Assembly (NCBI GenBank): GCA_021208685.1
Contig: JAJOJJ010000019.1
Location: forward strand, 1-64,000
Source: Saccharospirillaceae bacterium
GTDB lineage: Bacteria; Pseudomonadota; Gammaproteobacteria; Pseudomonadales; Oceanobacteraceae
DNA length: 64,000 bases
Direction: 5' to 3'
Part shown: one piece after another, positions 7,956 to 57,314 of the stretch
Position numbering within the stretch: the first letter of the stretch is position 1
Layout: every line of letters starts with the position of its first letter
Notes under the pieces: model-generated
Told to the model about the DNA's origin: nothing
The model's database searches: none
Seen by the model: the letters and a program-made list of their open reading frames with translations, nothing else
Made by a program: the position numbers and the translations under genes

Positions 7956-8987
7956 ATGCAAACAAAAATGACCCTGCACGGCGCCGGAGTGTATTACTTC
8001 GCAGTGACCGGAGCGAAAGACCAACCCATATTCAACTCAGTATTCGAGTTTGAATATGGCCTGAATATTCTGTCCAAAGTGACCGGAACCCGTCTGCTCG
8101 CCTATGTACTGGACGATCAGCAGATGCAGTTTGTACTGCGCTGCCAGCGTGACTGGACCGAAGTCATGGACGATATCCAGACGGCATTCGACAACCTGCA
8201 CGAACGCTGCTGGCACAGACGCCGTCAGGTTCTGTCCGATCAGGGCGTCGTGCTGCTGGTGGATGAACGTGCCAGCCTGGTCGATCTCATACTGCAACTG
8301 CACCACTCACCGGTGCACGGCGGTAAAGTGGCCGACGCCAGCCTCTGGCCCTGGAGCAGCGACCGCTACTACCGTGAGCCGACACCGCCGGTCTGGCTGG
8401 ATACCGAATCCATGCTCAACCTGCTGGTGAATGGCCGCCGTAACCGCGCCCAGCATTATATCGATGTGATGAAAGCGCCGTTCAAACCCAGACTTGATCT
8501 GGTTCACGGCAGCCATCCGCTGTATCAGGCACTGGCTCGCGATCCGTGGATTGATCAGCACCTGAAAAAAGAAGCGCTGATTCAGTCCGCCTATTCTCGC
8601 AGCGACATTCAGCGCCTGTTTGATGATGCCTGCCAGCTGGTTGCCCGGCAATTTAACCTGACCACCGCCGAGCTGTGCGACAAGATGAACCGGCGGCGCT
8701 TTCATCACCTGATGCCGCTGGTGATCTGGCTGCTGCGTGAACGCGGTGTGCATCCGGAGGCCATGACCCAACTGGTGGACGAAGACGAAGTTCGCCTGCA
8801 GCTGTGGCTGCGTAATCTGCCCGCCGATCACACCCGCAATATCCGTGACAAGCTCGCCCGCCAGTGGTCACCGGCTGCGCCGGAACTGGCCGTCATGGCA
8901 ACCGCAGGTGTTCCGGAAACAGACAGCCCGGAGACAGAACCTCTGGCCACAACCGAACCTGAAACCGGCAGCGTAACCCCTCATTAA
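7956..8987 (+). CDS. Y1/REP-associated transposase-like protein lacking the HUH motif
   Basis: About 343 residues from the ATG at 7956 (other starts at 7911 and 7968). The N-terminal 130 residues follow the layout of Y1 (IS200/REP-associated) transposases: GAGVYYFAVTGAKDQPIF corresponds to the usual 'YHVxxRGNxRxxIF' strand, then a helix, then LLAYVLDDQQMQFVLR where active enzymes have 'YVLMPNHVHLLL'. The catalytic His-hydrophobic-His is therefore Q56-M57-Q58, so single-strand DNA cleavage is unlikely. The C-terminal part (about 225-300) looks like a DNA-binding helical domain and the tail is acidic, low-complexity Pro/Thr/Glu. The gene is full length and its codon use looks like its neighbours, so it is probably domesticated rather than decaying. 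Function unknown. Confidence 0.6.
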   Translation: MQTKMTLHGAGVYYFAVTGAKDQPIFNSVFEFEYGLNILSKVTGTRLLAYVLDDQQMQFVLRCQRDWTEVMDDIQTAFDNLHERCWHRRRQVLSDQGVVLLVDERASLVDLILQLHHSPVHGGKVADASLWPWSSDRYYREPTPPVWLDTESMLNLLVNGRRNRAQHYIDVMKAPFKPRLDLVHGSHPLYQALARDPWIDQHLKKEALIQSAYSRSDIQRLFDDACQLVARQFNLTTAELCDKMNRRRFHHLMPLVIWLLRERGVHPEAMTQLVDEDEVRLQLWLRNLPADHTRNIRDKLARQWSPAAPELAVMATAGVPETDSPETEPLATTEPETGSVTPH

Positions 8988-12072: not shown

Positions 12073-12099
12073 TTGACCCATCACACAGGGCTCTATACC
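12073..12099 (+). promoter_or_regulatory. Possible promoter of the riboswitch-btuB operon
   Basis: TTGACC (12073-12078) and TATACC (12094-12099) lie just upstream of the riboswitch. The 15-base spacer is shorter than ideal, so this is a weak proposal based only on position and box likeness. Confidence 0.3.
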
Positions 12100-12107
12100 C
12101 TTCGCGC

Positions 12108-12297
12108 TTTCAGGTGCCCTGAGCCTACTGGCTGACAAGGGTTAAACGGGAAGACTGGTGTTACGTATTTACGTCAATCCAGCGCTGCCCCCGCAACGGT
12201 GATCGACCATACTGACAGCGTTATGCCACTGTGCTCTGCATGGGAAGGTGTTGTCAGCGAGCTAATGCTCAGGTCGTAAGCCCGGATACCGGCCTGA
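12108..12297 (+). promoter_or_regulatory. Cobalamin riboswitch
   Basis: The leader contains the ordered conserved blocks of the AdoCbl riboswitch: AGGTGCC near 12112, GGGAAGACTGGTG near 12148-12160, the segment AATCCAGCGCTGCCCCCGCA (12176-12195), AACGGTGAT after it, and a B12 box AGCCCGGATACCGGCC at about 12279-12294. It should lower expression of the following BtuB gene when cobalamin is plentiful. GC-rich segments that follow (GGCGACGGAGG near 12319 and CCTCCGCC near 12380) could form the expression-platform helix near the start codon. Confidence 0.93.
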
Positions 12298-12413
12298 ATA
12301 ACGATACTGATGTTGCGGTGGGCGACGGAGGGTGATCGCAAACCGTTGCCTGTAATGCAGCGCACCTTGCTTTTTACGCCTCCGCCACTGCAACCGTTTT
12401 TCTGGGTTTGCGG

Positions 12414-14378
12414 ATGAGCACTCTGAATACTGTTTTTTTACAACGCTGTGGTTTTTGCTCTCTTGTCACACTGGTTTGTTTAGCCGGTGGAGCATCATTG
12501 CATGCGGAAGACGCTCAGCTGAGTACAGTAGAGACACACGCGTCTTCACCGCAGACGCTGAATCGACCCGGATATCAGTTTTTTTCGCGGGCGGATGTTG
12601 AACATCGGTTTGCCAATCTCAGTGAATTTCTCAGTCAAATAAATGGAATACAAATACAACAGCTAAGCGGATTGGGTAATCCGGCGCTTATTTCCATTCG
12701 CGGTGCCACAACACAGCAAACCAAAGTGCTCATTAACGGCATCGAAAGCTCCAATGCACAAAATGGTGGTTATGATCTCAACCAGTTACCGATCAGCCAG
12801 ATTGAAAGCATTGAAATTTCTCAGGATGGTAGCAGTAATGGCTACGCTGATCGCGCAATCGGCGGAACCATCAATATTATTACCCGTAAGACAAAAAGCA
12901 ATTCTCAGCTCGGTATTCAGGCGGGCTCTTATGGAACCTACCGGGCATTGTTAAGCCAACAGGCTTCGGAAAATGTCAATATTCAACTGGAACACGAACA
13001 GAGTAATAACAACTATCTCTATCCGGTGACAAGCCCGGCCTTTGACAGCCAAAATCGCAATAACGAAGAAACACTCAATAATGCCGGTTTTTCGCGTCAA
13101 TCATTACAGGTTAATAGTGGTTCTGAGCAATTAACGGCACGTCTGCGTTTATCTCAACAAAAAAAGAATATTCCTGATTATTACCGTAACCATCCTGGCA
13201 ATGATGCACACCTGAGTGAACGCAATACTGTTGTGGAATTAAATGGTGAACAGAACCTTTACCGCATGCAACAAAAATGGCGGATAGGACATTCTCAGCG
13301 TTTTGAAAACTTCTACAATACTCAGGGGCTGATCGGACTCAGCCAAAGTGATAACCACTATCGTTATGAAAAAAATTATCTGTCTGTTGCCAATAAAACG
13401 ACCTGGACACAATGGCAACACCGCATCGACCTGAACGTCAGTGAAGAAACCTATCGCAGCGACTACCGTTTAGACGACGACAGTAAGCACTGCCTAACGC
13501 CTCAAGGCAATTGTGATGCTTTTTCATTTCAGCAAAGCACCAGCATCGGATCGCAACTTAACTGGAACAGCAAGAGTCAGCAACAACAGGTGTATATCGA
13601 TATATACCGGCAGAATACCAGCGATATAAGTCGTCAACGTTATGCCATTGCAGACGAAAGCACTCAGAGTGATGCGTTTATTGGTGCTGCGACCGGCTAC
13701 CTCTGGTATTCAGATCACAGTGACTGGAGTTTAACCTGGAAACGTGCTGCACGAATTCCAACCTTGTATGAGCGTTACGGCAATCACGGTCTTTTTTTAA
13801 GTAACCCTGACCTGCAACAGGAGATAAGCAATACGCTTACACTGAATAGTTTATGGCGAATGACTGAAAAAATTCAGCTATCCGGTTCAGCCTTTTATCG
13901 CGACCTTGATGATGCCATTGTACCTGTCTATGACGCACGCGGTATTGGTCGCTACGAAAATACCAGCCAGGCAACCCTGACTGGGATTGAATGGACTGCA
14001 GCTTATTGTGCCGATTATTGGTTCAGCACACTGTCTGGCAGTCATTATGACAGCCTGACAACCAGTGAGATAAAATCGTTTGATGAGAAGAAATTACCAG
14101 GCACTTATCACACCAGCCTGAAAGCCAGCACTGGGTTCAATATTTCAAAGCACCACATTGAATCCAGCATTGAATACAGTGACGATTTATACATTGACAG
14201 AAGCAATCTGATTGAGGGCGAAGCACGCTCGCTGATCAATCTTTCATACCGCTATCAGGCAACTGAGTATGAAGCAGGTCTTCGTATCATTAATCTCAGC
14301 AATAACCGTTTTCTTGATTTCACCAATCGACCGACAACTGGTCGGGAATGGTTGATTTTTCTTAACACCCGTTTTTAA
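12414..14378 (+). CDS. btuB: TonB-dependent vitamin B12 receptor (BtuB-like)
   Basis: Outer-membrane gated porin for cobalamin or related corrinoids. The 654-residue product has a cleavable signal peptide (ending near LHAEDA), a plug domain (about 50-160, including NPALISIRGATTQQTKVLINGIE and IGGTINIITRK) and a beta-barrel ending in an aromatic residue (LNTRF). Length is near E. coli BtuB (about 614). The clearest evidence for the substrate is the cobalamin riboswitch directly in front and the adenosyltransferase two genes later. ATG at 12414 is chosen over a TTG two codons upstream. Confidence 0.93.
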   Translation: MSTLNTVFLQRCGFCSLVTLVCLAGGASLHAEDAQLSTVETHASSPQTLNRPGYQFFSRADVEHRFANLSEFLSQINGIQIQQLSGLGNPALISIRGATTQQTKVLINGIESSNAQNGGYDLNQLPISQIESIEISQDGSSNGYADRAIGGTINIITRKTKSNSQLGIQAGSYGTYRALLSQQASENVNIQLEHEQSNNNYLYPVTSPAFDSQNRNNEETLNNAGFSRQSLQVNSGSEQLTARLRLSQQKKNIPDYYRNHPGNDAHLSERNTVVELNGEQNLYRMQQKWRIGHSQRFENFYNTQGLIGLSQSDNHYRYEKNYLSVANKTTWTQWQHRIDLNVSEETYRSDYRLDDDSKHCLTPQGNCDAFSFQQSTSIGSQLNWNSKSQQQQVYIDIYRQNTSDISRQRYAIADESTQSDAFIGAATGYLWYSDHSDWSLTWKRAARIPTLYERYGNHGLFLSNPDLQQEISNTLTLNSLWRMTEKIQLSGSAFYRDLDDAIVPVYDARGIGRYENTSQATLTGIEWTAAYCADYWFSTLSGSHYDSLTTSEIKSFDEKKLPGTYHTSLKASTGFNISKHHIESSIEYSDDLYIDRSNLIEGEARSLINLSYRYQATEYEAGLRIINLSNNRFLDFTNRPTTGREWLIFLNTRF

Positions 14379-14390
14379 AAAGGAAAAAAG

Positions 14391-15572
14391 ATGAAAAGGT
14401 ACTCAGTCATTATTCTGGCAAGCGCACTATTAGCAGGATGTTTTGGGGACGATGACAACAAATCAACCCCATTGACTGAAGGCTCCTATGCCGTACAAAC
14501 CGTCGCTGCTGATTACACAAGCAGCTCCGTCGTTACCGGAAATATTCTGGGTGAACGATCTGTTTCACAAACCATTCTGGTAAAAGACAAGTCGGATTTT
14601 ACCGTTAATACATACGGAAAATACCTCTACCATATCGGTCGTTACAACATCGATAGTATCGCTCGCTATGATTCTTCCGATAGTCTGAACGTAGCCCAAT
14701 GGGAGTACAGCACCAACGATAATGGAGCGGATAGATCTAATCCGTATAAAATCATTCATGTCTCCGATGATAAAGCTTACGTAATCCGTTACGGTGCAAA
14801 GACCATATGGCAGATTAATCCTCAAGCAGAAAGTGCCGGCCAGTTGGTTGTGGATACCATTGACCTTTCAGCCTACAACTATCCTGGTGCAGACTTTCCC
14901 CGCATGAGTGAAGCCGCAGTCTATAACGACAAACTGTTTGTAGTTATGCAACGTCTTGATAATAACTATAAACCACAAACCGCTTATGTTGCCGTGATAG
15001 ATACTGCTGATAATACAGAAATTGATACCGACCCGGGTACAAGCGGTTTAAAAGGTATTCCACTGTCCGTCACCAACCCTGTTGCAGCAGAGGCTGACAA
15101 CGGCTATCTCTACATTGCTGGTCGCGGCAACTTCGGTTCAGATACTGGTGGTCTGGAACAAATTGACATGACAACCTTGGTTGCCAGCAACATTATTAGC
15201 GACACTACATTTTCATCGCTGAATAATACTGAAACCAACACTTACTTTCATATCACAGATGTTGCACTGGCCAGCGATCAACACGGCTATGTCACGGTAA
15301 ATATTGAAAAAGGCTACGATACTCTATCGTCAAAAGTGTATGAATTTAATCGAATCAGTAAGACGGTGGGCCAGCCGCTCAATATGACCTCATTGAATGA
15401 TGTTATCATTTCAGATATTGCAATCGATACCAACCAACGCCTTTGGGTAGGCGTTGCCAACAAAGAAGATCCAGGCATCGTCGTGATCGACACCGACACT
15501 AACACTCAAAGCGGCAATCGTATTGAACTGCAAATGCCGCCTAAATCCATTAACTTCCTGAGCATCGACTGA
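14391..15572 (+). CDS. Beta-propeller-like lipoprotein between btuB and pduO (BtuG-like by context)
   Basis: A 393-residue lipoprotein: signal MKRYSVIILASALLAGC with Cys17, then an acidic DDD linker. The mature part repeats a pattern of short strands (for example KLFVVMQ, TAYVAVIDTADNT, GYLYIAGRG, RLWVGVANK, GIVVIDTDTNT) about every 45-55 residues, as in YncE/SMP30-type beta-propellers. It starts 12 bases after the btuB stop and ends 11 bases before pduO, so all three are under the riboswitch. In Bacteroides, BtuG is a surface beta-propeller lipoprotein that binds B12 with extreme affinity and caps BtuB; a similar job here is inferred. The residue after Cys is Phe, not Asp, so outer-membrane location is expected. 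Confidence 0.8.
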   Translation: MKRYSVIILASALLAGCFGDDDNKSTPLTEGSYAVQTVAADYTSSSVVTGNILGERSVSQTILVKDKSDFTVNTYGKYLYHIGRYNIDSIARYDSSDSLNVAQWEYSTNDNGADRSNPYKIIHVSDDKAYVIRYGAKTIWQINPQAESAGQLVVDTIDLSAYNYPGADFPRMSEAAVYNDKLFVVMQRLDNNYKPQTAYVAVIDTADNTEIDTDPGTSGLKGIPLSVTNPVAAEADNGYLYIAGRGNFGSDTGGLEQIDMTTLVASNIISDTTFSSLNNTETNTYFHITDVALASDQHGYVTVNIEKGYDTLSSKVYEFNRISKTVGQPLNMTSLNDVIISDIAIDTNQRLWVGVANKEDPGIVVIDTDTNTQSGNRIELQMPPKSINFLSID

Positions 15573-15583
15573 ACGGAGATCAC

Positions 15584-16153
15584 ATGGGCAACCGCTTATC
15601 CAAAATTGTAACCAAAACCGGCGACGGTGGCGAAACTGGTCTGGGGGATGGCTCTCGCGTCAGCAAAAGCAGTGAGCGTATACACGCGATTGGTGATGTG
15701 GATGAGCTGAATTCCTGGATGGGATTGCTGCGTGCCGAGCTGAGTGCCGAGGATGAACTGCAACCCTTGCTGCACCAGATTCAGCATGATTTATTTGATC
15801 TTGGCGGTGAGCTGTCGGTTCCGGGGTTTTATGCCCTGAGCGAAGAGCTGCTGCAGGATATTGAAGATAATCTGGAAGCCCTTAATGATACCCTGCCCCC
15901 CTTAAAGGATTTTATTTTACCGGGAGGAAATCGTTGTGCGGCCTGCGCGCATATGGCGCGTACCGTTTGTCGTCGTGCCGAACGTTCGCTGGTTGAAATG
16001 GCCCGCACTGAAACCGTCAGTACACTGGCGTTGCGCTATCTTAACCGCTTATCAGACCTGCTGTTTATTCTTGCCCGGGTTCTCGCCCGGCGAGACAATG
16101 GTCAGGAAGTTATCTGGCAAAGCCGGCATAAGCGCAACGACGATAATTCCTGA
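15584..16153 (+). CDS. pduO: PduO-type cob(I)alamin adenosyltransferase
   Basis: Transfers the adenosyl group of ATP to cob(I)alamin, making the coenzyme form. The 189-residue protein shows the PduO ATP-binding motif TKTGDGGETGLGDGSRVSK (about 9-27) and the helix RYLNRLSDLLFILARV (about 151-166) with the conserved Arg, Asn and Asp. Third gene of the riboswitch operon, so imported corrinoid can be adenosylated at once. A second, unrelated adenosyltransferase of the CobO type is encoded at 22850. Confidence 0.95.
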   Translation: MGNRLSKIVTKTGDGGETGLGDGSRVSKSSERIHAIGDVDELNSWMGLLRAELSAEDELQPLLHQIQHDLFDLGGELSVPGFYALSEELLQDIEDNLEALNDTLPPLKDFILPGGNRCAACAHMARTVCRRAERSLVEMARTETVSTLALRYLNRLSDLLFILARVLARRDNGQEVIWQSRHKRNDDNS

Positions 16154-25828: not shown

Positions 25829-28800
25829 ATGGTCATTACCCGGCCAATTTCCGTTCTTGCTTTAGCGTTACTCCTGAGCGCCTGTGGCGGTGGCAGCGGT
25901 GACGACAACAACGTATTCAAAGACCCCTCGTCAGAAACACCATCCCCTGAAAATCCGGCGCCTGAAAATCCAGCGCCTGAAAACCCGGCTCCTGAAAATC
26001 CGGCGCCTGACAATCCAGCGCCTGACAATCCGGCTCCTGAAAATCCGGTGCCTGACAATCCGGTGCCTGACAATCCGGTGCCGGACAACACGGCCACACT
26101 GGCGGCGATGAATGTTCAGCTCAACAACCTGGCCAGCGCTCTGCCCGTCGCCTTCACCCACCTGCCCTATGAAAGTCCGGCCATCAGCAACCTGCTGAGT
26201 GGCGTACCAGAGTACAGCGCCGATGCATTGCCTGCGTGGGCCAGTATCGACAGCAACAGCGGCGTTATCCGTGGCACACCAGGCGCAGACGATGCCAGTG
26301 CGGCGGTGAATGTTACCCTGAATCTGACGCTGGATGACCTCAGCGTCAGCCAGCCGGTAACACTGACCGTACGCCATGGGGCGGAATACAAAACCGCCGC
26401 CGGAATCGATTTTTACGCCGAACAGTTTGGTGGCGGAGAACGCCCGTTGCGTAACGATCTGAACGGTAATCTGCAGGGCGAAGTGCAGTTTGTGCAATCG
26501 CACAGCGTGCGTCCGGCCAATAACTATGTGCGTGACAGCGGTGATGAGACCAACAGCATCTACAGTCCGCGTCTGGTAGCCCTGCGCGATGCACTGCTGG
26601 TCTTTATTCCGACCAACATTGAGCAGGCGGATATTGTCACCGTTGATGCCGAAATCCGCGTCAACGGTGATGTACAGCAGCGTCTGTCACTGCATCACCC
26701 CAATGACCTGCCAGCCGCAGATTACAACGGTGCCAGTGAGGTCAGGTTTTCCCGCCGCGCCTGGAGTGCGGTGCTGCCCTGGCAACAGGTACGCAATGGC
26801 TTATCGGTACGCTTTATCGTCAATGCCGGTGCCACCAGCGAACGTGATGGCGTGCTGAGCGCCAGCGCGGTGGATATCGGTGATGCCAGCCAGATTGTGT
26901 TCCAGAGTCTGCGCCTCGGCATGCTCACTCACTTCAATAAAACCAATGGCCACTTCACCCTGAACAATCCGCTGCTGGCTGCCACCGATTACTTCCAGAC
27001 CCTGCCGGTGTCGCGACTGGTAATGGGCTCCTATGCCGATATGCAGCTCGATAAAGTCATTATCGGCAGCGGTGTTATCTATGACGAGATCAGCGCCAGC
27101 AACGGTGATATCTACAGTGGCGATATGCGCGGTGACGTAGCCAAAGCCCAGGTCAGCACCGGAATCAACCTGGCCAACTACGGCATTCCCAGCCACAACA
27201 TGAACCAGAGCTACCCGCATCTGTTCAAGCAAATCACCAACCACCACGCCTGGGGCAACTATCAGAATGGCCGCCAGCAACACGGTCTGAGCGGGGGTAA
27301 CGGCATCGGGACTCTGGTCGACAGCCGTGGCAACGAAGCCAGCCACGAATGGGGCCATGCCTATGGTCTGGGGCATTATCCGGGCAGCAAGCTGACCGAA
27401 GACGGTCGCTTTCAGCGTCACCATGCCGACAGTGGCTGGGGCTATATCGCATACCGCAACCGTCTGCGCGACAGTCTGAACGACAACCGAGAAGCCGCCG
27501 ACGAACAACCCCGCAGCTTTCACCTGAATGGTCGTATTCCCTATGGGCACGATGCCATGTCCGGTGGCAGCCCGAACTCGCAGTTCTCGGTTTACACCCA
27601 CTACACCGCCTATTCTGCCCGCATTATTCAGAACGATCTGGAACGCTTCCCGCTGCCGGATGCCAGCTTTGCCAGCGGCTATAAAAAATGGGATACGAAC
27701 CTGGGTGCCTATGCTGAGCACCGCTTCCCTGAAGCAGAACAGCGTCTGCCGCCCAGACAGGTCGGCGTCGCCGTCGCCACCATTCTGGGCGGCTACGATC
27801 CGCAGGGCAGCAGCGCCCTGATTTACCCGGTATTTCATGGCAACTACGGTAATGTGTTCGATCTGCCATCACCCGATCTGGACGATAACCGCGATCAGTG
27901 CTGGCTCAGCGTCAGCAACGCTGCCGGTGCTGAGCGCAAGATCGCCCTGGCCGCCAGCCGCTATGCCAGCAACCGCATTAACCAGCTGCACATCAATCTG
28001 GAAGCCGAATTCCGCCCGACCCTCGCCGTGCTGAGCTGTCGCCGCAACGGTGTCGATACCGAACTGACGCGCACCCCTTTCGACGGCCAGATCCCGGAAT
28101 TACCAGCGCTCGCGGTTGTCGGTCAGGAAGAAGGCTTCAGCAGGCTGCAGGCTGTGGAAATGGAAACCCTGAGCACGGTATTGGCCAGTCAGCAGGACGC
28201 CACACTGCCGGTACTGAGCAACCAGCAACTGGCGATGCTCGACAGCTACTCCGATGCCCGATTGCGCAATGATCTGAGCGCTGCGGCCCTGCCGGTGTAT
28301 GAACGCCTGCGTTCAACCCGCGATCATATTGCCCGGCTGGAGCTGACCCTGAACAAACTCAGCGCTGACCACATCAGTGCCGCAGAACAAACCCAGATTC
28401 TGCGCCGGTTCCTGCATGACACCGGCCTGCTGGCCAGCGATGACAACCTGCCAACCACCGGCAACCGGATTCAGGGGCCAAAATTCTTCAGCCGTGCAGG
28501 TGCAGAAGCCGATGGTTACGTCAGCGCTGTCAATACCTCAGCAGAAGCCAGCGCCTGGCTGATCAGCGCTCAGGGGCGGATTCATCCGGCGGAAACCCCC
28601 TGGCTGTGCCTGACCCCGGCCAACGGACGTCTGGCACTGAACAACTGCAGCAACGGCCAGAGTAATCAGTCATGGCTGCGTACCGAACACAACACGCTGA
28701 AAAATCAGGGCAGCGGTCAGTGTGTGGATTTCGCCCACCATAATGGCACGCTGATTACTTACAGCTGCCACAACGGCTGGAACCAGCAATGGAGCGCGCC

Positions 28801-28879
28801 GCTTGCCAGCGACAACCTGTTGCTGGCATTGCTGAACGGCAGCACGCTGCAGCGCCTGTATGAGCTGCTTGGGGAATAA
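25829..28879 (+). CDS. M66 (StcE/TagA-like) metalloprotease lipoprotein with lectin-like C-terminus
   Basis: A 1016-residue surface lipoprotein. Order: signal with lipobox LLLSAC (Cys19); a proline-rich stalk of 5-residue repeats (about 40-87); an Ig/cadherin-like domain (about 95-190); an M66-type protease region with zinc motif H506-E-W-G-H510-A-Y-G-L-G-H516, followed by Y and P as in StcE; a long middle region; and a ricin-B-like segment near 930-995 (WLCLTPANGR, QSWLRT, GQCVDFAHHNG, NQQWS). StcE/TagA proteases cleave mucin-type glycoproteins, so a glycoprotein or mucin-like substrate is inferred. Single gene between two terminators, with an AGAGAG ribosome site. Confidence 0.88.
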   Translation: MVITRPISVLALALLLSACGGGSGDDNNVFKDPSSETPSPENPAPENPAPENPAPENPAPDNPAPDNPAPENPVPDNPVPDNPVPDNTATLAAMNVQLNNLASALPVAFTHLPYESPAISNLLSGVPEYSADALPAWASIDSNSGVIRGTPGADDASAAVNVTLNLTLDDLSVSQPVTLTVRHGAEYKTAAGIDFYAEQFGGGERPLRNDLNGNLQGEVQFVQSHSVRPANNYVRDSGDETNSIYSPRLVALRDALLVFIPTNIEQADIVTVDAEIRVNGDVQQRLSLHHPNDLPAADYNGASEVRFSRRAWSAVLPWQQVRNGLSVRFIVNAGATSERDGVLSASAVDIGDASQIVFQSLRLGMLTHFNKTNGHFTLNNPLLAATDYFQTLPVSRLVMGSYADMQLDKVIIGSGVIYDEISASNGDIYSGDMRGDVAKAQVSTGINLANYGIPSHNMNQSYPHLFKQITNHHAWGNYQNGRQQHGLSGGNGIGTLVDSRGNEASHEWGHAYGLGHYPGSKLTEDGRFQRHHADSGWGYIAYRNRLRDSLNDNREAADEQPRSFHLNGRIPYGHDAMSGGSPNSQFSVYTHYTAYSARIIQNDLERFPLPDASFASGYKKWDTNLGAYAEHRFPEAEQRLPPRQVGVAVATILGGYDPQGSSALIYPVFHGNYGNVFDLPSPDLDDNRDQCWLSVSNAAGAERKIALAASRYASNRINQLHINLEAEFRPTLAVLSCRRNGVDTELTRTPFDGQIPELPALAVVGQEEGFSRLQAVEMETLSTVLASQQDATLPVLSNQQLAMLDSYSDARLRNDLSAAALPVYERLRSTRDHIARLELTLNKLSADHISAAEQTQILRRFLHDTGLLASDDNLPTTGNRIQGPKFFSRAGAEADGYVSAVNTSAEASAWLISAQGRIHPAETPWLCLTPANGRLALNNCSNGQSNQSWLRTEHNTLKNQGSGQCVDFAHHNGTLITYSCHNGWNQQWSAPLASDNLLLALLNGSTLQRLYELLGE
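25946..26089 (+). repeat. 15-base tandem repeat coding a Pro-Glu/Asp-Asn-Pro stalk
   Basis: Nine full 15-base units (consensus CCTGAAAATCCGGCG) and a partial tenth encode PENPA/PDNPA/PENPV/PDNPV in frame. They form an extended stalk between lipid anchor and protease. Adjacent units are nearly identical, so the copy number is likely to vary by slippage. Confidence 0.95.
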
Positions 28880-54354: not shown

Positions 54355-55128
54355 ATGATTACTCCGTTATTGAAGCATTGCGCGGCAATCCTGTCTGGGT
54401 TGGCCGCATTCCTGCCTGTCGCCGGTAATGCACAGACTGGTGATACCGATGTTATGGTTTACTATGGTGAAGCCTACGCTCTGGATGAGCCCACAACGCT
54501 GATCTATCGCGAAGAACACCGGCTGCAGTTACGGGATGGTAAACCCTATCAGCGGGATGTGAATTACTTCGATGCTGAAGGAAAAATGATTGCACAAAAA
54601 GAAAATCGCTATTTTAACAATGCTGCGGCTCCTGATTTCCGTCTGCAGGATCTGCGCAACAACTACCGTGAGCAGGCACTCTATAACGACGATGGCAGTC
54701 TGACATTAGGTCTGCAGGAAAGTGACGGACAGGCGTGGCAAGAAAAGCGCATAAAAAGCCTGCCCGATGATCTGATTATTGATGCCGGGTTTGATGAATT
54801 TGTACGTCGTCATTGGCAAACTCTGCTGGCAGGAAAGCAGGTTACTTTCAGCTTTGCATCCGCGGCCAGACAGGATCTGGTGAACTTCCGGCTGCAAACG
54901 CAATCCGCCGATGAGCACAGGCTGGTGCTCAGCATGCGCCTCCAGTCGCGCATGTTATCCTGGCTGCTCAGTCCTATTGAGCTGACATACGACCGTCAAA
55001 GTCAGCGTTTGCTGCGTTATCGGGGACTGAGCAATATTCTTGATGAACAAGGCAACAGCTATCAGGCGGATATCCGTTATCAGTATCCGGCTGCGGTGGT
55101 CGGGACAAGTACCGCCAGCCGTGATTGA
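54355..55128 (+). CDS. Exported protein of unknown function in the photolyase operon
   Basis: A 257-residue protein with a signal peptide ending near VAGNAQTG. The mature part is rich in charged strands (YREEHRLQLRDGKPYQRDVNYF, LTYDRQSQRLLRYRGLSNIL cited in part), suggesting a periplasmic beta-rich fold such as a lipid-binding barrel (inference). No lipobox. I do not recognise a named family with confidence. It starts three bases after the DUF2878 gene. Confidence 0.8.
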   Translation: MITPLLKHCAAILSGLAAFLPVAGNAQTGDTDVMVYYGEAYALDEPTTLIYREEHRLQLRDGKPYQRDVNYFDAEGKMIAQKENRYFNNAAAPDFRLQDLRNNYREQALYNDDGSLTLGLQESDGQAWQEKRIKSLPDDLIIDAGFDEFVRRHWQTLLAGKQVTFSFASAARQDLVNFRLQTQSADEHRLVLSMRLQSRMLSWLLSPIELTYDRQSQRLLRYRGLSNILDEQGNSYQADIRYQYPAAVVGTSTASRD

Positions 55129-55232
55129 TGCGCGACCGCAACAGGGCAGAATGGTTCACTTTGCATTCATATTCAGCCGTTATGATAACCACTATGAATA
55201 CGTCTGCGACCAGCCAACAGGGAACCCGTACG

Positions 55233-57314
55233 ATGAAATCACTGCTTAAACGACGTCAGCATTCTGCTCAATCCGGGCGTCAGAGAATGCGATTACTGAT
55301 GCTTCCGGCGCTGCTTTTGGCTCAGGTTGCAGCAGCAGAAGAAAGCGATACCGTTAAACTGGATACGGTGCAGATCAGCGGTCAGGAAGAGAAACTGACG
55401 GAAATCTCCACCGAAAAACTGCTGAAAATTCCGGGCTCAGGGAATGACCCGTTGCGGGCCATTGAAAGCCTGCCCGGCGTGACCTTTTCCGGTGGCCGCA
55501 CCTCCGCTCCGGCCGTACGTGGTTCATCACCTGATGATAACGCCTACATCATCGACTTTATCCCGGTTGGTTATATTTTTCATACCGACTCGTCGAGTAT
55601 TTTAAGCGATAACGTTGTTGAAGATTTCACCCTCGAAACGGCGGCCTTTCCGGCGCAATACAACAATGCGACCGGGGCGGTCATTGATGCCACATCGCGT
55701 TCCCCCTATTACGACCGCAGCCAGTTTATTATTGATGCCAGCCTGCTGAAAGCCGGTGTTTTTATCGAACAGCCCATCAGTGAAAACCAGAGTTTTTACA
55801 TCGCCGCGCGCCAGAGTTTATTCCAGTACTACATCGAAAACTTCCTTGATGATGAGGACTTTGAATTTACCACCGTCCCGGAATATTACGATTATCAGGG
55901 TAAATACGAATACCGCATCAGCGCCACTGAAACACTGTCATTCCAGGCTATAGGCTCACGCGATAAAGCCGGATTATTGTTCGCCGAAGATTCTGACACG
56001 GTTTTGCAAGACCCGGGATTATCCGGCGGTCTGGATTTTGAAGCCTTTTTCAACAGTCAGGGACTGGTCTGGGAAAAGCTGTATACCAGTGGCATGACCC
56101 ATAAGATCGGCCTGTCGCAAATGGAGCAGAAATTCGGCTTCCGCATTGGCCGGGAAAATAATATTGACGTTAAAGTAAACGACTATAACCTGCGCAGCCA
56201 GTTCAGCTATCCATTGAATTACGAACATGAATTACGCTGGGGTGTTGAGCTTAAAGAAAGCCAGATCAGCTATAAAGGCCGCTTTGAAGCCCCACCCTGT
56301 GATGAATTCACCCCGGATTGCCGTATTGTTGACGGTACAGAAGTTCTGGAAGGGGATGGCAAGCCAACGATTTACCATTACGATGCACATCTGGCGGATG
56401 CGTGGAATGTCACCCCGGACTGGACTTTAATTCCCGGTGTGGCGTTGTCTTATGACGATTATACCGAGGAATACTTCACCGAGCCGCGCCTGCAGAGCCG
56501 CTGGCAATTTACTGACCGCTGGTGGTTTACCAGTGCTTATGGCCAGCACCATATCTTGCCGGATAATTTCGGCAGCTATGTAACGCCGTTCGGTAATCCG
56601 GATCTCAGGCAACCAACCGCCACGCATTATGAGTTAGGACTGGAAAATCAGCTGGATAACGACATGCTGTGGAAAGTCGAGGTCTATTACAAGGATCTGG
56701 AAAACATCATCATTTCCCGTCCGGGCCCGGAAAACTACAGCAACCTTACCGACGCTGAATATAATGATCTGCCGCTTTACACCAACGATGCCGACGGCAA
56801 AGCCTGGGGAATGGAATTCTTCCTCAATAAAAACCTGACCGAACGCTGGTATGGCTGGGTATCGGTGGCTTATTCACGCACCTTCCGCACCAATAATTTA
56901 ACCGGTGATGATTTCAGCTATAACTACGACCAGCCAGTCATTATCAACAGCGTGGCCAATTACCAGCTGAATAAAGACTGGCAAATTGGCTTTAAATGGC
57001 GTTATCAGAGTGGTCAGCTGATTACGCCACTGGAAGATGCGGTTCAGGATGCCGATGATCCGGCGCTTTACAATCCGGTGTATGGCGGCGTCAACTCTGA
57101 ACGCTTACCGGCGTATCACAAACTGGATGTACGTGCGGATCGTACCTTTCGTTTCCAAAGTGGCTGGGAAATGGATTTCTATGCAGAAATTCTTAACCTC
57201 TACGGACGTGATAACGTCACCGGCTATGAATACAAAGGTGCGGATTACAGCGAGAAAGAGGAAGTTACTGACTTACCGACCATTGTCTCTTTTGGCATAA
57301 AAGCCAAGATTTAA
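55233..57314 (+). CDS. TonB-dependent receptor at the end of the photolyase operon
   Basis: A 693-residue outer-membrane receptor: signal peptide (MRLLMLPALLLAQVAAAEES lies at its core), plug domain (about 50-170, including PLRAIESLPGVTFSGGR and APAVRGSSPDDNAYIIDFIP) and a long beta-barrel. Start choice: ATG at 55233 has an AGGGA site; ATG at 55287 gives a shorter signal peptide; ATG at 55128, coupled to the previous stop, would add 35 residues. Substrate unknown. A receptor as last gene of a photoprotective lipid operon is unusual. Confidence 0.9.
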   Translation: MKSLLKRRQHSAQSGRQRMRLLMLPALLLAQVAAAEESDTVKLDTVQISGQEEKLTEISTEKLLKIPGSGNDPLRAIESLPGVTFSGGRTSAPAVRGSSPDDNAYIIDFIPVGYIFHTDSSSILSDNVVEDFTLETAAFPAQYNNATGAVIDATSRSPYYDRSQFIIDASLLKAGVFIEQPISENQSFYIAARQSLFQYYIENFLDDEDFEFTTVPEYYDYQGKYEYRISATETLSFQAIGSRDKAGLLFAEDSDTVLQDPGLSGGLDFEAFFNSQGLVWEKLYTSGMTHKIGLSQMEQKFGFRIGRENNIDVKVNDYNLRSQFSYPLNYEHELRWGVELKESQISYKGRFEAPPCDEFTPDCRIVDGTEVLEGDGKPTIYHYDAHLADAWNVTPDWTLIPGVALSYDDYTEEYFTEPRLQSRWQFTDRWWFTSAYGQHHILPDNFGSYVTPFGNPDLRQPTATHYELGLENQLDNDMLWKVEVYYKDLENIIISRPGPENYSNLTDAEYNDLPLYTNDADGKAWGMEFFLNKNLTERWYGWVSVAYSRTFRTNNLTGDDFSYNYDQPVIINSVANYQLNKDWQIGFKWRYQSGQLITPLEDAVQDADDPALYNPVYGGVNSERLPAYHKLDVRADRTFRFQSGWEMDFYAEILNLYGRDNVTGYEYKGADYSEKEEVTDLPTIVSFGIKAKI

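Follow-up and report, generated by a model that had tools for sequence, protein, structure and literature searches.

A lipoprotein of predicted propeller fold paired with BtuB in a gammaproteobacterial cobalamin riboswitch operon

Does a gammaproteobacterium place a lid on its vitamin B12 receptor BtuB, as Bacteroides does with the surface lipoprotein BtuG? The question was raised by an operon in the first 64,000 nucleotides of contig JAJOJJ010000019.1 of a Saccharospirillaceae bacterium (GCA_021208685.1), a stretch referred to here as the window and lying on contig C16 of a 4.0-Mb genome in our numbering. On its forward strand, a cobalamin riboswitch was followed by btuB (12414-14378), a gene for a 393-residue lipoprotein that we call LP (14391-15572) and pduO (15584-16153), with gaps of 12 bases between btuB and LP and 11 bases between LP and pduO. 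This was the operon described by the original prediction, which had been made from the window sequence alone; its riboswitch was confirmed too, except that the true start, at 12094, lay 14 bases before the one it had given. In our reading, a special class of BtuB has LP as its dedicated surface partner, which captures corrinoid and hands it over to the receptor, and we give this reading a probability of roughly 0.65. The best description of LP is a BtuG-like surface lid for BtuB, either convergent with BtuG or diverged from it beyond recognition.

Pairing and joint exchange of LP and btuB

None of the libraries searched (Pfam, NCBIfam) named the LP family, whose closest named members came from Thalassolituus alkanivorans (89% identity), of a genus of marine hydrocarbon degraders, and from a Thalassobium metagenome-assembled genome (90% identity). 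In a protein search, 27 of 55 related genomes (the window genome among them) proved to encode LP. A 25-member profile detected it in 19 of the 293 genomes sampled from the order, 22 of 369 from the class and 1 of 398 from the phylum, the window genome being counted in each sample. Within these three samples the family was confined to Gammaproteobacteria; a plasmid collection gave no LP match, and none was confirmed among viral contigs. We evaluated gene neighbourhoods, as the original prediction had proposed, in 57 loci comprising the window, 26 loci from the 55 related genomes and 30 from the order and class samples (all 10 new order genomes and 20 of the 21 new class genomes). LP adjoined btuB in every one: btuB was the next gene upstream and on the same strand in 57 of 57 loci, and a recheck of the 56 loci other than the window again placed it on the same strand in all 56, with a median gap of about 29 bases and the largest gaps, by the model's start, of about 420 bases (L118 and L120). 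Cobalamin riboswitches were present in 52 of the 57 loci, and in all 51 that were checked they lay upstream of btuB on the btuB strand; three of the loci without one (L036, L110 and L114) were cut by a contig end. pduO followed LP directly in the window and in 15 of the 56 other loci. LP and LP-type BtuB (called at E <= 1e-60 with a profile built from 13 LP-linked BtuBs) occurred together in 27 of the 55 relatives and were both absent from the other 28, neither being found alone, a count in which the threshold matters since many of the 28 genomes lacking LP have BtuB-like proteins outside the LP-linked clade. The locus surveys and this co-occurrence ruled out LP as a chance neighbour of btuB.

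Judged from sequence comparison, the btuB-LP pair moves as a unit. Across 15 loci with pduO, protein distances of LP and BtuB were correlated at 0.96, compared with 0.43 for LP and PduO and 0.44 for BtuB and PduO; the partial correlation of LP and BtuB given PduO was 0.95, and none of 5000 Mantel permutations gave a value as high. A 12-locus version yielded 0.92 for LP-BtuB versus 0.23 and 0.25 for the comparisons with PduO, the full set of 17 loci for which a pduO entry existed yielded 0.96 versus 0.46 and 0.50, and the LP-BtuB correlation over the 57 loci was 0.88. In genome G003, from the same genus as the window, the genes around the pair closely resembled those of the window (kinase 89%, chemoreceptor 90%, AceF 82%, ApbA-like protein 80% and PduO 97% identity, with the chemoreceptor, AceF and ApbA-like labels assigned by eye), and the pair between them, at L055 3677-7800, had 25% identity in BtuB and 27% in LP. 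G003 grouped with the window in the PduO tree (support 100/98) and with loci L051, L052, L053 and L056 in the BtuB and LP trees (support 100 and 99). By eye, the break fell near the btuB leader, which still resembled that of L032. Such joint exchange of LP and BtuB between kept neighbours is the pattern expected of a physically matched pair, without thereby proving contact.

Further riboswitch loci offered a comparison with BtuB that stands alone. Nineteen were fetched, 18 from genomes lacking LP and one a second locus of G008; one (L156) was too short, leaving 18 examined, of which 17 came from LP-less genomes. LP was found in none of these 18, and a BtuB-like gene lay on the riboswitch strand in 15 of them (in L148 as the last of several genes), while L142, L154 and L155 had no btuB within reach of the riboswitch. 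At four loci (L139, L141, L143 and L147) a solo btuB occupied the same site as in the window, under a riboswitch and followed, as there, by pduO and the chemoreceptor gene (recognized by eye), and L140 was similar with one gene inserted before pduO. These four solo btuB-pduO operons differed from the operon of the window in that they held no lipoprotein and that their BtuBs fell outside the LP-linked clade and were shorter in three of four. In a BtuB tree of 73 sequences (57 LP-linked, 15 solo and that of Escherichia coli; a quick tree with some long branches), a single branch separated all LP-linked BtuBs from the rest (Shimodaira-Hasegawa-like approximate likelihood ratio test, SH-aLRT, 99), and LP linkage required one change versus a mean of 14.7 when shuffled. 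LP-linked BtuBs were also longer, at a mean of 664 residues versus 616 for solo ones. Of the 48 extra residues, counted along the E. coli precursor, 31 fell within 196-210, 346-360 and 376-390 (+11, +8 and +12), three stretches that on the topology of BtuB are probably extracellular loops; 9 others were N-terminal, where start calls are uncertain. The solo BtuBs nearest to the LP-linked clade, from L139 (G004), L157 (G037) and L152 (G054), were themselves long (660-684 residues) and, although their placement rests on long branches, may represent a stage preceding the gain of LP or following its loss.

The receptor of the window was recognized by its plug domain (PF07715, 1.7e-15), and its best NCBIfam model was that of the TonB-dependent B12 receptors (TIGR01779, TonB-B12, 98.3 bits). 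All 13 LP-linked BtuBs scanned matched TIGR01779, with the best E of all models (9.2e-37), and all 13 likewise matched a siderophore-receptor model (NF038079). Against solved structures, a profile of these 13 matched E. coli BtuB best (4.8e-42), followed by XusA and Bacteroides BtuB chains; as a single sequence, the BtuB of the window had XusA (9gbc) as its top structure match, through the N-terminal plug region.

Sequence features and predicted fold of LP

LP started with a lipoprotein signal peptide (14391-14441) ending in the lipobox LAGC, with Cys17 as the predicted lipid carrier and an acidic linker, FGDDD, directly after it. The lipobox pattern was found in 55 of the 57 LP members (in L049 it was placed at the wrong Cys, though LSAC was visible), and the remaining two had LNGC by eye; Asp stood at position +2 of the lipobox Cys in 5 of the 55. 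The mature protein was strongly acidic, with a median net charge of -35 over 55 members (range -70 to -12), which may attract corrinoids or may merely mirror the proteins of salt-water bacteria. The acidity of BtuG2 has been discussed in relation to corrinoid attraction in two reports (PMC10404256, PMC6143338). A match of one in 25 members to DUF4430 (0.0034) was judged to be chance.

LP is likely to be a beta-propeller, as suggested by structure models together with internal repeats and a permuted homologue. No Pfam or NCBIfam match named the fold, and the propeller motif Reg_prop was detected below its cut-off in 7 of 25 members (best E 0.0096). Among solved structures, the only match of the LP profile below 0.01 was a propeller-bearing sensor (4a2l, E 4.2e-5), and the LP of the window as a single sequence matched nothing below 0.23. 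As the match to 4a2l was spread over short stretches, the best of which had 0.69 alone, it was set aside as a weak direct link between LP and a solved propeller. Aligned with itself, a profile of 54 members matched at shifts of about 167, 105, 52 and 222 residues (E 2.3e-5, 4e-4, 0.004 and 0.04; probabilities 76, 35, 9 and 1%), shifts consistent with a repeat of about 54 residues that occurs about seven times. The propeller-type repeats that had been seen in the window thus gained support from the self-alignment, in which one or two matches were notable. In G011 (L047, 6047-7225, minus strand) the LP homologue was circularly permuted by about one blade, so that the segment matching query residues 338-393, the last 56, stood N-terminal and the rest followed, a rearrangement that a closed ring allows.

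Structure prediction, another check proposed with the original prediction, pointed to a propeller in models of low confidence: the predicted local distance difference test score (pLDDT) was 53, and 44.5 for the mature part alone. The first model had 382 matches in the PDB at E <= 1e-3, and the 50 listed, most of which are propeller proteins by title, included BtuG1 with cyanocobalamin at rank 2, XusB at rank 4 and BtuG3 at rank 11. With the second model there were 11 matches at E <= 1e-3, XusB ranking first, and BtuG3 followed at rank 30 (E 2.6e-3). From the repeat spacing, we infer a blade count of about seven.

A candidate lid for BtuB

If LP resembles BtuG in fold, it does not do so detectably in sequence. 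PF16819, which we take to be the family of BtuG, was matched by none of 25 LP members at E <= 1 and by nothing in the window genome, while three control genomes matched, two of them over the cut-off. According to one report, PF16819 is a propeller that occurs next to TonB-dependent receptors and to DUF4465 proteins, which bind B12 (PMC13398666). The proposal of a BtuG-like capture protein was partly supported: it survived the checks of fold, made on models of low confidence, and of linkage to btuB, and no special kinship with BtuG emerged. In several other respects the systems are alike. The BtuB-BtuG pair of Bacteroides, in which BtuG is a seven-bladed propeller surface lipoprotein, shares with the LP operon a propeller-type lipoprotein (predicted for LP) beside btuB, cobalamin riboswitches, and BtuB chains that exceed that of E. 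coli in length, as seen in solved Bacteroides structures and in LP-linked BtuBs. Linkage to btuB is near-universal for both, with one study giving BtuG in 106 of 109 btuB operons (PMC6143338). The LP operon differs in lying in Gammaproteobacteria, in holding pduO and in the missing PF16819 match, and the surface position and B12 binding that characterize BtuG are so far proposals for LP. XusA-XusB, also from Bacteroides and described in one report (PMC13142918, in which XusB is DUF4374 and 9gbc is XusA), is alike in pairing a propeller lipoprotein with a TonB-dependent receptor, and XusB ranked fourth and first in the two LP fold searches; it serves iron-siderophore uptake, and DUF4374 was not found in the 25 LP members scanned.

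The original prediction knew of no proteobacterial counterpart to BtuG, in agreement with the literature examined, where a survey of 313 strains from the human gut led to BtuG being called exclusive to Bacteroidetes (PMC6143338) and lipoprotein-capped transporters are likewise called exclusive to Bacteroidetes (PMC10404256). No gammaproteobacterial counterpart of the BtuG lid appeared among the matches listed in our search of titles and abstract starts of open-licence papers. The btuB of E. coli is under a riboswitch; unlike that of the window, it is solo, with murI behind it and no lipoprotein, and its product falls outside the LP-linked clade. Pathogenic proteobacteria have in TbpA-TbpB a TonB-dependent receptor with a surface lipoprotein, and the statement that capped receptors occur only in Bacteroidetes is therefore not strictly true for every substrate, though TbpA-TbpB, unlike LP-BtuB, handles protein-bound iron and has other lipoprotein folds.

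After export and lipidation at Cys17, LP acting as such a lid would reach the outer membrane and be displayed on its outer face, where a propeller of about seven blades would sit over the barrel, on the enlarged loops of BtuB. There it would catch cobalamin or related corrinoids even when these are very dilute, and hand them to BtuB for TonB-driven import, after which PduO would adenosylate the imported cobalamin; the riboswitch would shut the operon when the cofactor is plentiful. The window genome encodes MetH, and its contig C11 holds a BtuF candidate (208 bits, below the cut-off of 234) with CbiB, CobD and CobQ candidates, so that it uses cobalamin and may salvage or make it. With this BtuF candidate encoded, it is unlikely that LP replaces BtuF. 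We propose more tentatively, at somewhat under even odds, that Gammaproteobacteria evolved a propeller lid for BtuB independently, and that the cassette of BtuB and lid competes and exchanges with solo BtuB and with other lidded alleles at one conserved site between riboswitch and pduO.

Several observations weigh against a surface lid for a B12 receptor. One is that the window genome carries late cobalamin genes and so may not depend on B12 from outside. Two loci (L054 and L127) had no riboswitch despite upstream sequence, which in L054 amounted to about 500 bases, and L127 was the weakest LP match fetched. Both LP models were built from three near-identical sequences, and just the best self-alignment match was clear, those at shifts of about 52 and 222 having probabilities of 9 and 1%. 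In the first fold search no template modelling score (TM-score) of 0.6 or more occurred among the 50 matches listed and the designed propeller Pizza6 ranked above BtuG, so that the match is to propellers at large. The BtuB of the window lay far under the curated equivalog cut-off of TIGR01779 (98.3 versus 599.7 bits), marking it as a divergent BtuB, and was outscored with that model by a TonB-dependent receptor on contig C46 of the same genome (126 versus 95 bits). No surface-export signal or system was identified for LP, in a SLAM search whose own control gave no match.

This last point also suits the main rival, in which LP is anchored in the outer membrane facing the periplasm and assists BtuB in assembly, plug gating or passage of B12 to BtuF. 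Gammaproteobacteria have a propeller lipoprotein on that face in BamB, and chains of the BAM complex took ranks 18 and 38 in the fold search with the second, poorer model. We nevertheless consider a periplasmic LP unlikely, since the few stretches in which LP-linked BtuBs have grown would, on the topology of BtuB, be extracellular loops, and the genome has a BtuF candidate at another place. BtuG and XusB, high-ranking in the fold searches, are moreover described as surface proteins of their receptors (PMC10404256, PMC6143338, PMC13142918). It is improbable, if less easily dismissed than a shielding role, that LP and BtuB take up cobinamide, another cobamide or protein-bound B12 in place of cobalamin itself. 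The low TIGR01779 score would agree with such a substrate, as would the variety of corrinoids that BtuG2 binds according to one report (PMC10404256); the riboswitch in 52 of 57 loci, the adjoining adenosyltransferase and E. coli BtuB as best profile match speak for cobalamin, though they fit a corrinoid without saying which.

The least probable explanation, which we would hardly expect to hold, is that LP mainly shields BtuB from phages or bacteriocins and that capture is incidental. BtuB is a phage and colicin receptor, and exchange of btuB and LP between conserved flanks could be a product of selection on the receptor, but the swap shows only that the two genes go together, and riboswitch control and fold point to uptake. 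Lid-assisted capture of B12 is described as an advantage in the gut in two studies (PMC10404256, PMC6143338). If LP is indeed a lid, a separate gammaproteobacterial lid family would make lid capture a general solution where the vitamin is very scarce, and lidded and lidless relatives could be compared as a matched case; it would raise the question of how gammaproteobacteria place LP on the surface, and a gene family unnamed in the searched libraries would become annotatable.

Operon layout and other features of the window

The riboswitch aptamer (RF00174, 12094-12311, forward strand) covered the full model (1-189) with 93.3 bits by cmscan against a gathering score of 31.5 (E 7e-22) and was the only cobalamin riboswitch detected in the window genome at E <= 0.01. 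Behind it, on the same strand (12312-12394), the predicted fold formed a long hairpin followed by CCGUUUUU, a terminator-like arrangement; the spacer between riboswitch and btuB (12305-12412) had a predicted folding energy of -39.7 kcal/mol (z -1.9), with 7 of 200 shuffles folding equally well. The hairpin and run of U are probably the expression platform, a role that we infer because the hairpin was absent from the output of a simple terminator scan. The open reading frame of btuB was called at 12408-14378 with a TTG start, and by eye the in-frame ATG at 12414 is the likelier one. The product of pduO, a cob(I)alamin adenosyltransferase, matched PF01923 (1.1e-57) and TIGR00636 (1.2e-58), passing the cut-off of the latter (197.6 versus 108.45 bits). 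At another locus of the set, L035, a TwoAYGGAY RNA lying downstream of btuB and LP (8232-8361) barely exceeded its gathering score (43.9 against 43).

The C46 receptor (L137, 6000-7853) had 617 residues and adjoined ExbB/TonB-like genes, named by eye; no cobalamin riboswitch was detected at its locus in the genome scan (E <= 0.01), and it may be a second transporter. Elsewhere in the window, a 729-residue protein (55125-57314) had no Pfam match at 1e-5 and a middle-to-later stretch weakly matching the B12-receptor model, and a 1016-residue protein (25829-28879) carried M66 peptidase, TagA lipoprotein and ricin-type lectin domains by Pfam.

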